Assembly: GCF_001807485.1 (NCBI RefSeq)
Contig: NZ_KV789189.1
Coordinates: forward strand, 1-64,000
Direction: 5' to 3'
From: Corynebacterium sp. HMSC08A12
GTDB lineage: Bacteria; Actinomycetota; Actinomycetes; Mycobacteriales; Mycobacteriaceae
DNA length: 64,000 nt
Position numbers and translations under genes: made by a program. Positions 28,353 through 64,000 of the stretch are shown in pieces. Position 1 is the first letter of the stretch. Every line of letters starts with the position of its first letter. Under the pieces are notes generated by a model that saw only the letters and a list, made by a program, of their open reading frames with translations, did no database searches and was not told where the DNA came from.

Positions 28353-29921
<1,569 letters not shown>

Positions 29922-30057
29922 CTAGAAAATTCTGCGGCGCTTCCTTACCAGGGCTTGGGTGCCTGGGAGTTCTCGCCGTCTTTTCGCCGATGTACTACAG
30001 AATAACCCTTTGCAGCGCGTTTTTGTGTGCCGGGGTTAGGTAGCGGCGGGGCGCGTA

Positions 30058-31293
30058 CTACGGCGCCAGGTGGGTCAGCGAGGTGACGAATGCGCCACTG
30101 GGAAGCCGAACGCTCAAGTTCCCTCCCGTAACGATCAGCAACAGCGGAGGAGTGTCCCAGGCAAATCTATCGGCGAAGGCTTGGAGGTTTTGTGCAGCTC
30201 TATCCAGCACTTGGGAACTCTGCCCCAACTTAACCTCCACAAGCACCGTTCTGCCTGCTAATTCAAAGACCGCGTCTACCTCTAGCCCGGATGCATCACG
30301 GGCGTGGAAGATCTGCCGCCCTGTGAGCACACGCAGATCGTGTACCACCTGGGATTCAAACATCTGGCCCGCGTATTCAAGGTTCTGCAGTAGCTTTTCC
30401 GGAGATGCCTCCAGCACAGCTGCAGCCAGCGCAGGATCCGCGAGGTGCCGTTTCGGCACCTTGCGGAGGCTGGCACGCGAGCGCAGATGAGAAGACCAGG
30501 CACGCTGCTCCTCGGCAATGAAAATCCGCTGTAGCGTGGTGAGGTACTCCCTGGTAGTTGCTCGATCAATATCAATATCAGTAGCGATCGCGCTAATGGA
30601 CTGCTCTGTCGCCACCCCTCGCGCCAGGGAGCGCAGGAGCGCCTGAACCTTCACGGGGTCCCGACGTTTGCCGTCGGTGACATTAATGTCTACGTGCGCC
30701 ACGGTCTCTGCGTAGCTACGCAGGTTTTCCTGAGCCGCAGCTGTAGGAAAATGTCGGTTTCCAGGCCAACCTCCGTGGGCCATACGGTCGATGACTCCTC
30801 GGATATCCAACACAGTTTCACTGTTGTGCGTCAGTTCGCCTTCTTCCACCAGCTTCGAAAGGGACACAGCACCGTTGGAATGGCCAGACTCGTAGAAGCT
30901 GAAGGTGTGCATTCGCAACCGGGCTATTCTTCCTGCCCCGGAGTGGCGGGACTTCTCCTCCCCCGGCGCAGTTGAGCCCGTAAGGATGAATTGCCCCGGT
31001 GCCTGGCGCCGGTCAATCTCATGCCGCACTAGGTTCCATAGTCGGGGCTCCTCCTGCCATTCGTCGAAAACGCGGGGAGTGGCGCCGCTGAGCGCCAGGT
31101 CTGGCATGGTGTTGAGCTGCGTCTCTAGATTAAGGTCCGTATCCACCTGCACGAGGCTGCCCGCCACCTGGCGTGCCGTCGCGGACTTTCCGCAACCTTT
31201 CGGCCCTTCGATGAGCACTCCACCGGCACGCTCTAAGGCACTCTGCAGCCGTTGATCTTCAACTCTAGGAAGATATTCCACAGCCATCCTCAC
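30058..31293 (-). CDS. AAA ATPase with C-terminal DUF4143 domain
   Basis: The 411-residue protein starts with a P-loop ATPase domain. Walker A is GPKGCGKS at residues 30-37, a Walker B-like acid lies in RVFDEW, and sensor-type FILTGSTA follows. A winged-helix segment comes next (QSISAIATDIDIDRATTREYL), and the DUF4143 domain ends the protein. Its LEVDAVFELAGRTVLVEVKLG fits a PD-(D/E)XK nuclease-like core. Such proteins are scattered, accessory and poorly understood. It interrupts the conserved sigD-guaB2 gene order. A 23-bp-periodic repeat array lies immediately upstream. GTG is used as start here, and ATG at 31287 is also possible. Confidence 0.82.
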   Translation of the reverse strand: MRMAVEYLPRVEDQRLQSALERAGGVLIEGPKGCGKSATARQVAGSLVQVDTDLNLETQLNTMPDLALSGATPRVFDEWQEEPRLWNLVRHEIDRRQAPGQFILTGSTAPGEEKSRHSGAGRIARLRMHTFSFYESGHSNGAVSLSKLVEEGELTHNSETVLDIRGVIDRMAHGGWPGNRHFPTAAAQENLRSYAETVAHVDINVTDGKRRDPVKVQALLRSLARGVATEQSISAIATDIDIDRATTREYLTTLQRIFIAEEQRAWSSHLRSRASLRKVPKRHLADPALAAAVLEASPEKLLQNLEYAGQMFESQVVHDLRVLTGRQIFHARDASGLEVDAVFELAGRTVLVEVKLGQSSQVLDRAAQNLQAFADRFAWDTPPLLLIVTGGNLSVRLPSGAFVTSLTHLAP

Positions 31294-31305
31294 CAGCCGC
31301 TTTCA

Positions 31306-31413
31306 CTTGATCCATCAGTTTACCACCGTTTCATTCCCCACTTTATCAGCAATTCATTCACCAGTTTGAGCGACTTTCATTCCCCAGTTTAGGCGCGTTT
31401 CATTCACCAGTTT
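31306..31413 (-). repeat. Array of five 23-bp-periodic repeats upstream of the DUF4143 ATPase
   Basis: On the + strand, 16-base units TTTCATTC(C/A)CCAGTTT start at 31329, 31352, 31375 and 31398. The spacing is exactly 23 bp and the intervening seven bases vary. A fifth, weaker unit starts at 31306 in phase. Units alternate between CCCC and CACC. The array ends 13 bases before the ATPase start, in its promoter or leader. It is too short in period for CRISPR. An operator array or a structured leader is more likely. Confidence 0.85.
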
Positions 31414-31467
31414 GCGGTGAGGTGATGCTCTTGCCTTGCATAACCGGCCACAGGGTACGGTGTTGGT

Positions 31468-31887
31468 GTGAGCTTTAACCACGATCAGATGCCGCCGGAC
31501 CCTTTCGCCGATGATCCGAACGACCCTGCGTCGTTCCTGGATCCCGACGAGTTTGATGAGGCCGTTCCGCCGTTGTCTCCCGATGAGGTTCAGGCTCTGC
31601 GGGAGGATCTGCAGAATGTCCGTGATTTCCGCAAGCTGTTGGAGCCGCGCGGGGTACGCGGGATCACCATGCTGTGTGAGGATTGCGAGGACAGTCACTT
31701 CTACGACTGGGACATCATCGAGTCGAATATTCGCACGATGTTGAACAACGAGCTTGTGCCGGTGCACGAGCCGTCAGCGCAGCCAAACCCGAATGATTAT
31801 GTGACCTGGGATTATTGCCTGGGATACGCGGACGCGATCGACTTCGCGTTCCACGGTCTGCGCCCGCCGTTCCTCTGGGGGAAGTAG
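31468..31887 (+). CDS. DUF5319 protein
   Basis: The 139-residue acidic soluble protein has no signal peptide. Its N-terminal 30 residues are very Asp/Pro-rich. LREDLQNVRDFRKLLEPRGVRGI, MLCEDCEDSHFYDWDIIESNIRTML and DYCLGYADAIDFA match the DUF5319 family found beside sigD and guaB2 in actinobacteria (Rv3412-like). The Cys-x2-Cys pair could bind metal. Role unknown. The start is GTG at 31468. It converges on the anti-sigma factor gene with adjoining stops. Confidence 0.8.
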   Translation: MSFNHDQMPPDPFADDPNDPASFLDPDEFDEAVPPLSPDEVQALREDLQNVRDFRKLLEPRGVRGITMLCEDCEDSHFYDWDIIESNIRTMLNNELVPVHEPSAQPNPNDYVTWDYCLGYADAIDFAFHGLRPPFLWGK

Positions 31888-60124: not shown

Positions 60125-61546
60125 ATGGTTGAATTGCTTGCGCGAGGCGAACCTCGCATTCGGGGGAATTTCATACTTTGGGGGATGGGAATAATGGGTT
60201 CAGTGGCACTTTTGGCTGCCAATTCCGCCGACACTGAGCATACTTCCTGGTGGGCGTGGGTTTTGTGCGGGTTGCTGGCGATCGGGTGCATCGCGGCGGG
60301 CTGGTTCGCCTTCGCCCGCAGCCGCGCCACCACGGGTCAGGGCACGCGCTGGTTCCGGCTGCTCTGCGTGCACGACAGATTGTGGGGCGAGCCGTCGTCA
60401 CGGCGGATTTCTGGCGACCGGTTGGCCGGTGGTTTAGGTCTTTCTCTTATGGACGCCACCCTCTCCACCGCAACCGTCCCCACCAAGCCTTTCGGTCGCG
60501 GCTGGTTGGGGGATGCCTCTGCCACGCTGGTGGGCGTGCCGGAGCACGCGGCGGCGCGGATGCCTTTTGCCGCCAGCGGGTGCGGGGTGTGGGCTCTGCC
60601 CGCGGAGGCTCCGCCGGTGGGCGCGGAGGTAGCCGGGCTGGCGGAGCAGCTAAGCGTTCCGGCTGCGCCGGGCTGGTTTATCGGGCTGACCGATGCCGGC
60701 GAACCCATGCTGGTGCACCCCATCCCCGGCGCGACTTTTGCGATGTTTGGAACGAGTGCGCAACTGCGCGCGTTGGAGGGGTCAATGAACTGGCCGGAGG
60801 AGCTCTTCGAGCTGCGCAGGTTCAGCGGTGGTGCTGGCGGGGCAGCCGACCCAAGGGAGGCAGCGCACTTGCCGAATGCGTCGGGTACGACGAATCAGAC
60901 GGATCCGACAGATCCAGCTTCAAGCAAAGAGGACACGAAAACTCGGGTGTTGCTCGTGGAGATTCCTGCAGCCATGCGCGGTTCACGTCATGGGAGTGTT
61001 GGCTTCGCCGCTGCGGAGGACGTGCTCGCCCAGGGGCGCGAGCGCCTGCAACTGTTGGGGCACCCTACAGTGGATGTGTATATCGCGGTTCCGCCGGTTG
61101 GCACGGGCACGATCCTGGCTCACGGTGAGCACCGGGAGTACTTCAACTTCTTCGCCGTCACGGCTCCCGCGCCGAAGCCAGCACCGAAACCTGCGACACA
61201 GACCGTGCCACAGCTCGCGCCGAAACCTGCGCCGCAGCCGGTTCCACAGAATGCGCCGGTTGCCACCCCGGCCACGGCTCCGAAGGCGGGCGTAGCCACT
61301 CCCGCGCCCGCTCGTTCAAGGCGTGCAAAGCATCGCCGCGCGAGGGCGAATGCTCACAAGCACCGCTTCCCTCACGGTGCGGTATCTGGCTCCGTGGCTG
61401 GCTCTGCATCCGGCGCGGTATCTGCCCCGGCGGCTGGCTCCGCATCTACTGCGTCTGCGTCCGCCGAGCCACTCCCACTCCCGACTGGGGAGCGCTTGGC
61501 GCGCGTCGTCAGCGCGCGTTCCGCCAGCTCCTCGTCGGCCGGGTAA
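60125..61546 (+). CDS. Membrane protein of the ESX-4 locus, possibly EccE-like
   Basis: The 473-residue protein (start uncertain: ATG 60056, 60125 or 60185) has two closely spaced membrane helices at its N-terminus. A soluble part of about 220 residues follows ([58 protein letters not shown]). Then comes a Pro/Ala/Lys-rich stretch, a basic cluster ([16 protein letters not shown]) and a Ser/Ala/Gly tail. Two helices plus a soluble domain recall EccE, but similarity is not clear and mycobacterial ESX-4 lacks EccE. The last 175 bases are antisense to truA. Confidence 0.55.
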
Positions 61547-63261: not shown

Positions 63262-63379
63262 GGCACCCAAACCCACCACAAACCCCGCCCAAACCCACCA
63301 CAAACCCACAAACCCCGCCCCGCACAGGCCAGCAGGCGCACCCTTGCCTGTTCGGTGACATCGGGGCCGGCGGAGGCGG

Positions 63380-63397
63380 GTGGCGTCAATAAATAAG
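63380..63397 (+). repeat. Dispersed GGTGGCGTCAATAA motif, intergenic copy
   Basis: GGTGGCGTCAATAAATAAG lies here. GGCGTCAATAA also occurs at 800 and 59524, and inverted at 52412. Confidence 0.6.
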
Positions 63398-63417
63398 CAA
63401 CCAATAGGCAACAAAAA

Positions 63418-63460
63418 AGGCGGGCCACGAGCTACCCGATTGGGTAACCGTGACCCGCCT
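63418..63460 (-). terminator. Terminator after rplQ
   Basis: The stem pairs AGGCGGG-CACG with CGTG-CCCGCCT and has an inner ACCC/GGGT pairing. On the minus strand it is followed by TTTTTTGTTGCC. It lies about 60 bp after the rplQ stop. Confidence 0.87.
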
Positions 63461-63518
63461 CGAAGCTAGGCGAAAGCGAAAGCTAAGCCAGAGCGAAAGC
63501 TAGGCGAGAGCGCCGGAC

Positions 63519-64000
63519 TTACTTGTCCTCGGCAGCCTCGGCAGCCTCAGCCTCAGCGGCCTTGTCGGTTGCGGTGTCAGCCTCAACCTCCGGAGCCTCC
63601 TCAGCCTCTTCAGCCTTAGCCTCAGCAGCCTCGGCCTCAGCCTTCTTGGCCTTGGAAGCAGCAACGCGGTTAGCGCGCTCTGCCTCGGTGGAGGCCAGCG
63701 GCTCCGTCACCAGGGAGATCTGGGAGATCGGAGCGTTGTCGCCCTTGCGGTTCTCCAGCTTGATGATGCGGGTGTAGCCACCCGGACGGCCTTCGAACTT
63801 CGGAGCCAGCTCGTTGAACAGGTAAGCAACAACTTCCTTGTTCGGGATGAGCTTCAGCACGTTGCGGCGATCCGCCAGGGTGCCGCGCTTGGCCTTGGTG
63901 ATGATCTTCTCGACGTAGGGGCGCAGCAGCTTAGCCTTTGCGTCCGTGGTCTTGATGGCGCCGTGCTCAAACAGCTGAGCAGCGAGGTTGGACAGGATCT
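63519..64000 (-). CDS. rplQ: Ribosomal protein L17 (RplQ), partial
   Basis: The 50S protein is cut off at the window end, so its N-terminus is missing. The visible part reads [56 protein letters not shown] and [18 protein letters not shown], all typical of L17. The C-terminal 60 residues are an acidic Ala/Glu-rich extension common in actinobacterial L17. truA lies nearby, as in mycobacteria. A clear terminator follows. Confidence 0.95.

Follow-up and report, generated by a model that had tools for sequence, protein, structure and literature searches.

A direct-repeat array upstream of a candidate defense ATPase gene

The window examined here, a stretch of 64,000 nucleotides from a Corynebacterium genome, carries an array of direct repeats between a minus-strand ATPase gene (start codon GTG at 31293) and a divergent DUF5319 gene (start at 31468). 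In the array, a 16-bp unit occurs five times, as four strong copies and a weak one, with starts exactly 23 bp apart; in the sense of the ATPase gene, the unit reads AAACTGGKGAATGAAA and is followed by seven variable bases. The original prediction, made from the letters of the sequence, had described both this spacing of strong and weak copies and the seven-base variable spacers, and the coordinates confirmed it on both counts (Table 1). Since the array begins at 31306, 12 bases separate it from the gene.

Table 1 The array, the ATPase gene, and the insert that holds them, in window positions
Feature	Position	Strand	Remarks
Whole array	31306..31413	-	Five 16-bp units at 23-bp pitch; proposed, from sequence, as ATPase binding sites
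Unit 5	31398..31413	-	Gene-distal; GGTG variant; strong
Unit 4	31375..31390	-	GGGG variant; strong
Unit 3	31352..31367	-	GGTG variant; strong
Unit 2	31329..31344	-	GGGG variant with one mismatch; strong
Unit 1	31306..31321	-	Gene-proximal; weak copy
Insert (gene and array) absent from the guaB-DUF5319 gap of relatives	about 30035..31453		Right end by blastn, left end by eye
AAA_14-DUF4143 ATPase gene	30058..31293	-	411 aa; PADLOC candidate PDC-S01
Winged-helix segment, residues 208-262	30508..30672	-	Proposed array reader; sub-threshold HTH_IclR match and structural model
Recognition-helix window, residues 242-257	30523..30570	-	16-residue window that best tracks unit sequence
PD-(D/E)XK-like motif, E338, D340, E353-x-K355	30229..30282	-	Conservation

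The region upstream of the gene matched itself at 18 of 23 positions at a lag of 23 bp and at 19 of 23 at a lag of 46 bp; a score of 17 at either lag was reached by none of 450 dinucleotide shuffles made from 90 upstream regions. A 15-base pattern, allowing at most one mismatch, occurs at four sites in the 2.2-Mb genome, all of them within the array. Allowing two mismatches added one further, unrelated site, and the same pattern read backwards, as a control, gave four sites with up to two mismatches. The exact unit was present in 3 of 201 genomes of the genus, every time beside this ATPase gene, so that searches by period find the phenomenon and searches by unit miss it; as a tandem pair, the unit was found in none of the viral contigs. 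The window array contains no inverted repeats of at least 12 bases, and a generic scan of the window's own array region returned no sigma-70-like promoter. Elsewhere in the window, tandem-repeat clusters occur at 61184-61446 and 63264-63652, with periods of 36 and 6-22.

The ATPase gene and the array lie together inside an insert of approximately 1.4 kb. In the three relatives that we aligned (loci L132, L133, and L134), guaB and the DUF5319 gene are adjacent, separated by a short gap that holds no ATPase gene. Similarity on the right side restarts at 31489 in one of the relatives and at 31453-31454 in the other two. Similarity by blastn on the left side stops at 29861-29870, and the remaining gap was aligned by eye alone. 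Beside the ATPase gene, the insert carries no other plausible gene, and no target duplication was established at its approximate ends in the comparison with the three relatives. Two other classes of repeat were considered for this locus and rejected: a plasmid iteron or partition site, given that a single AAA_14-DUF4143 gene lies between guaB and DUF5319 with no replication-initiator or partition gene, and a CRISPR array, given units of 16 bp with 7-bp spacers and an insert that holds no cas gene.

In the 411-residue protein, Pfam recognized DUF4143 and AAA_14 above the cut-off (PF13635, 104.1 bits, and PF13173, 48.8 bits) and HTH_IclR just below it, and searches against NCBIfam and PHROGs returned nothing informative. 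The Walker motifs and the PD-(D/E)XK-like residues are intact. Residues G35, K36, D77, E78, E338, D340, E353, and K355 are 98-100% conserved in 90 homologous proteins, and D340 and K355 are invariant in a 34-protein set. We take the set formed by E338, D340, and E353-x-K355 to be the pattern of a PD-(D/E)XK nuclease core. Seven PADLOC models of PDC-S01 match the protein, the best of them (PDLC04790, E-value 2.7e-64) over residues 3-378, and by these profile matches the window protein is a member of the candidate phage-defense family PDC-S01. The available text of a 2026 survey describes PDC-S01 as an ATPase fused to a PD-(D/E)XK superfamily member, ranks it as the fourth most common defense across all prokaryotes, and adds that most PDCs of the core defensome still await experimental validation (PMC12988326). 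The closest named relatives of the gene are those of Corynebacterium jeikeium strains and Corynebacterium sp. ACRPH, which would place the window close to them, and four phage records carry a homologue of the ATPase.

A structure of the ATPase, predicted from 11 sequences (mean pLDDT 74.9), contains helices at 211-223, 231-238, and 242-254 followed by a strand, in a numbering that runs two below that of the 411-residue protein; the C-terminal core of the model is built from three strands, one helix, and a further strand. The best structural matches, all of them partial, middling, and obtained against a model of that mean pLDDT, were the archaeal ATPases 2qen (Z 8.8 over 110 residues) and 2fna_A (Z 8.4 over 127), which cover model residues 159-293 and 129-292, winged helix included, together with Card1 for the C-terminal part of the model (6xl1_A, Z 7.1 over 143 residues) and McrBC (Z about 6). 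Chains of TubR were among the structural matches of the winged helix at Z 6.0-6.3, a level that the tool calls common. Neither sequence searches, which gave Walker-motif matches only, nor structure searches returned a whole-protein relative of known structure; Foldseek gave one match at an E-value below 0.001, with TM-scores of 0.20.

A regular pitch upstream of homologous genes in the genus

For each homologous locus, oriented by tblastn, we determined the best self-match period between 14 and 60 in the 300 bp upstream of the gene. The main set comprised 90 loci of the genus (28-100% protein identity), mostly the top matches by E-value among the matches listed; some lower or near-duplicate matches were skipped, and further weak matches exist. 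A held-out set of 40 loci took in nearly all of the remaining listed matches that begin no later than residue eight, among them broken and partial genes.

A period of 23 or 46 was the best in 86 of the 90 upstream regions. The corresponding counts were 6 of 90 for regions inside genes, 2 of 90 for locus ends, and 39 of 450 for shuffles. A self-match of at least 17 of 23 at these lags was found upstream in 81 of the 90 loci, compared with none of the regions inside genes, one of the 90 locus ends, and none of the shuffles. Among the held-out loci, 23 or 46 was the best period in 36 of 40, and 33 loci scored at least 17. Exceptions numbered four in each set, two of the held-out ones having best periods of 45 and 22/44, and a regular pitch was thus present in 122 of the 130 genus loci. 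The original prediction had pointed to homologous ATPase loci as the place to look, with a consistent lack of upstream repeats speaking against it; in this genus, repeats proved to be the rule in both sets. Among genus loci whose gene contains an internal stop codon, L224-L226 keep a period of 23 or 46 and L222 does not.

The arrays called by our script had three units in 28 of the 90 loci and four units in 37, with up to seven units in the genus. Most genus arrays end within 60 bp of the start codon, those of L015 and L097 lying farther away. The upstream flanks of the 90 loci fell into 60 neighborhood clusters, 47 of them with a single member, indicating that the array follows the gene and not the neighborhood.

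A further element of the original prediction was a higher-order pattern of two steps, read from the alternation of CCCC and CACC in successive units. The alternation is indeed present in the window copies. Four copies would alternate by chance about one time in eight, however, and among the 50 genus arrays with at least four units, similarity was higher at lag 2 than at lag 1 in 28 and higher at lag 1 in 21. This comparison rules out a two-step, 46-bp pattern as a general feature of the arrays.

Arrays outside the genus

We applied the same analysis to 55 loci outside the genus: 29 of 30 loci from a search of the phylum (L127 was dropped, its longest ORF being another gene), 19 plasmid loci, and 7 loci on viral contigs. 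Left out were L178, which gave the same result as L175, and the short matches L179 and L180. The best period was 23/46 in 24 of the 55 loci, spread over several phyla, with at least 17 of 23 in 19 of the 24; it was 22/44 in 7, 24/48 in 3, and 32 in 5, the rest having none of these periods, in tallies that count ties at the chance-level score of 14-15 (L106, L110, L126, and L169). For three loci, the result depends on the start codon chosen: L112 matches at 23 of 23 positions (lag 22) and L119 at 19 of 23 (lag 46) only when 90 bases inside the putative start are included, and the array score of L171 is present in the 55-locus tally and absent in a separate scan of viral contigs.

Arrays were found before homologues on plasmids of Bacteroides ovatus, B. 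uniformis, Prosthecochloris, Spartinivicinus, and Collinsella, as well as in Sulfitobacter, Skermanella, and several viral contigs. In the viral contigs L173 and L174, the gene is preceded by long arrays made up of many 23-bp units that are nearly identical. The array of L167 (Rhizobium) is irregular, with a best lag of 45 followed by 23 and 46. The best pitch was 22 in L113, L114, L170, L184, L185, and L189 and 24/48 in L109; these values in other members suggest that pitch may go with subfamily. Another DUF4143 subfamily (L118 and L120-L123, with ARQVGKTW or a close sequence at the N-terminus) has a best lag of 32 around a TACGGCCTTATTT-like sequence, and some of its copies are apparently inverted; judged by these sequences, its arrays are perhaps another operator design.

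Two observations concern the surroundings of such genes. The annotated neighbor of L165, on an Actinomyces oris plasmid, is a type I-U cas3, and a Thermus AAA_14-DUF4143 gene is listed downstream of a CRISPR locus in the available text of PMC4406477. A 3.4-Mb genome of the window's phylum (G342) contains 23 DUF4143 matches.

Position relative to predicted promoters

In a clade of 14 loci, most of them with the unit TTTCAAAACGCCAAG, the array could be placed relative to a predicted promoter. An extended -10 element (TGNTANNAT) is present in 13 of the 14, at the same distance from both the start codon and the last unit, and in this clade the last repeat covers the predicted -35 position. Transcription is predicted to start only a few bases from the start codon, which would leave the array untranscribed. 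In the genomes of 12 of the 14 loci (all except those of L025 and L030), 39 of the 47 sites that match the clade's units with at most one mismatch lie within arrays; the clade pattern read backwards, as a control, gave 1 site in these 12 genomes.

Unit sequence and the recognition helix

The units differ between clades, and many look unrelated to one another (AAACTGGKGAATGAAA, TTTCAAAACGCCAAG, TTGCAAAAACGGGTATAG, CCACAAATCACGGTGTAG, and GGAAAATTCGTAGTGTAGG). We compared unit similarity with protein identity across 73 loci, which remained of the 78 with three or more units after five near-identical ones were set aside. The correlation was highest for the recognition helix (rho 0.445) and stood at 0.406 for the winged helix, a value reached by none of 999 permutations; it was lower for the whole protein (0.327), the nuclease segment (0.302), the linker (0.297), the lid (0.271), and the AAA part (0.268). 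Of all 16-residue windows, residues 242-257 ranked first, with a partial correlation of 0.344 given the rest of the protein, the best value outside the winged helix being 0.297 for a Walker-A window (raw rho 0.420).

Shared descent inflates such correlations, and the helix signal is weaker once close relatives are removed. When each 60% cluster was represented by a single locus (31 loci), the partial correlation of the helix was 0.154, reached by 5 of 2000 permutations; its raw rho of 0.248 was below that of the whole protein (0.275), and the whole winged helix, at 0.316, was the highest of the five compared. In the 1638 pairs that join a genus locus to a non-genus locus, unit similarity correlated with winged-helix identity at 0.230 and with overall identity at 0.122.

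Close relatives gave a view of single changes. Comparison of the window locus (L006) with the 90%-identical L010 shows a difference at one mid-unit position in all four comparable copies and at a second position in three of them. The helix of L010 carries T247A and R248S, which are not present in L007-L009, and residues 247 and 248 of the window protein are candidate specificity residues. Spacers are partly alike slot by slot, CGCTGAT being found in both L008 and L010. With unit positions changed and some spacers kept by slot, homogenization of whole repeats is unlikely, since the spacers would have moved along.

Overall, unit sequence tends to change together with the helix by which the ATPase is predicted to read DNA, which suggests that the ATPase probably binds its own control region. 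The original prediction had also offered the array as the target of the nuclease-like domain. This is less likely, as the unit follows the recognition helix (242-257) more closely than the nuclease segment.

A probable autoregulatory operator and the alternatives

The computation directly showed the array, how general it is in the genus, where it lies, that its sequence is clade-specific and tracks the helix, and that it shares an insert with the gene in the window; from these results we infer binding, cooperativity, and autoregulation by the ATPase. The reading that we consider likely is that the array is a private DNA operator, bound by the winged helix of the adjacent ATPase and setting the expression of that gene. 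Among the options of the original prediction, an operator for self-control by the ATPase thus appears best supported by the sequences, with the nuclease target, a ToxIN-type RNA, and the general two-step pattern faring less well.

In such an operator, the winged helix would read the array next to its own gene, and several ATPase subunits would bind side by side on the direct repeats, where 23 bp between sites corresponds to about 2.2 helical turns. The bound subunits would sit next to or over the core promoter of the gene and so set its expression. Array and gene would be inherited and moved as one unit, and through co-evolution of unit and recognition helix, each copy in a genome would answer to itself alone. 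Repression appears somewhat more probable than activation, because the array abuts the gene, overlaps the predicted -35 in one clade, and a nuclease-bearing ATPase may be costly if left uncontrolled; an activator, too, would be compatible with tandem sites that extend upstream from -35.

A more elaborate scenario goes further, and we give it rather little credence as a whole. Each family member would own a private array of 22-24-bp pitch on which its own ATPase-nuclease assembles, with the gene silenced and the machine inactive or poised. Infection that removes subunits would release gene and nuclease together, and helix and array would drift as a pair, giving many orthogonal copies per genome.

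It is distinctly unlikely, in our assessment, that the array serves chiefly as a platform for loading or assembly, on which subunits would polymerize into an ATP-driven nuclease complex and for which the promoter position would be secondary or dual. DnaA boxes, iterons, and par centromeres nucleate protein assemblies, and several properties of the arrays fit this idea: the regular pitch in 122 of 130 genus loci, the intact Walker and PD-(D/E)XK-like motifs, and the size of the arrays, which reach seven units in the genus and are long in L173 and L174. With a step of 23 bp, successive sites are rotated by roughly 70 degrees, an arrangement that would accommodate subunits in a spiral. However, the pitches of 22, 24, and 32 in some other members would yield other angles, and the distance from the array to the predicted -10, fixed in one clade, argues for a promoter role.

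Binding of the array by a host regulator, a sigma factor, or a nucleoid protein is very improbable. Direct repeats in promoters can be the targets of separate regulators, as with RptR of E. coli, which represses a defense island via three direct repeats according to the available text of PMC12255303. Yet the units of 27 same-genome paralogue pairs (mean similarity 0.292) were no more alike than those of 2759 different-genome pairs in the same identity range (0.299), so that no common host factor appears to set the unit. Moreover, the unit follows the ATPase's own helix, and the array shares the window insert with the ATPase gene and no other plausible one.

Slightly harder still to credit is that the repeats are a functionless by-product of replication slippage or gene conversion. 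In some arrays, neighboring copies are identical, spacer included (L014 at 46 bp, L078, and L079), and a clustering of the variable columns into one stretch was significant singly in just 13 of the 50 genus arrays of at least four units. Against this, agreement in these 50 arrays averaged 0.89 over 16 columns versus 0.68 over the most variable seven, a stretch chosen as the lowest in each array, and in none of them were 21 or more columns invariant. Changes affect unit positions across copies, with some spacers retaining their slot identity, and the pitch recurs just before the gene in those 122 of 130 loci, whose genes are very divergent.

Least probable of all is the ToxIN-like option of the original prediction, in which a repeat RNA made from the array would control the protein in the manner of type III toxin-antitoxin systems: direct repeats placed directly before a single gene would fit it, but a search of the array found no Rfam family at gathering score, inverted repeats of at least 12 bases are lacking, the Pfam matches (AAA, DUF4143, and a sub-threshold HTH) include no ToxN-like endoribonuclease or comparable toxin domain, and the predicted promoter and transcription start of one clade are located downstream of the array.

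Relation to known systems

In the literature consulted, which was mainly openly available and included the accessible text of PMC12988326, PMC13356809, PMC4406477, and PMC12255303, we found no description of an array upstream of AAA_14-DUF4143 or PDC-S01 genes, and the main text of PMC12988326 does not contain the terms "direct repeat", "operator", or "promoter". No description was found there of the trigger, target, or regulation of PDC-S01 either, and the array offers a direct handle on them. If the array is the ligand, each copy would come with a predicted DNA ligand that can be read from its sequence. The arrays, near-universal in the genus and recurring in other phyla, would also supply many naturally occurring pairs of winged helix and DNA site from which to learn a recognition code.

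Operator-centromeres (TubR/tubC and ParR/parC) and plasmid iterons also have direct-repeat arrays immediately before the gene of a DNA-binding protein, and that gene is often self-repressed. Unlike in those systems, the ATPase, the winged helix, and the nuclease-like domain are here found in one protein, the insert carries no replication or partition gene, and many genomes hold several copies with different units. In STAND activators, of which MalT is an example, an ATPase is joined to a DNA-binding domain, and the protein acts on direct repeats located upstream of -35; MalT lacks a nuclease-like domain and regulates metabolic operons in trans. With the archaeal ATPases 2qen and 2fna and the nucleases Card1 and McrBC, the likeness consists of partial structural matches to the model only.

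The likeness to PDC-S01 lies in profile matches over most of the window protein, and the difference in the upstream array, of which the available text of the survey makes no mention (PMC12988326). RptR is similar in that direct repeats in a promoter control a defense locus, and is described in the available text as a small, separate repressor whose minimal site is a 6-bp palindrome (PMC12255303); the window insert, unlike that locus, has no separate regulator, and its array no inverted repeats. Operators made of direct repeats are thus already known, and RptR uses them for a defense island. What appears, as far as we could find, to be new is the use of private, fixed-pitch arrays in a very common candidate family, each with a unit that would follow its own ATPase's helix.
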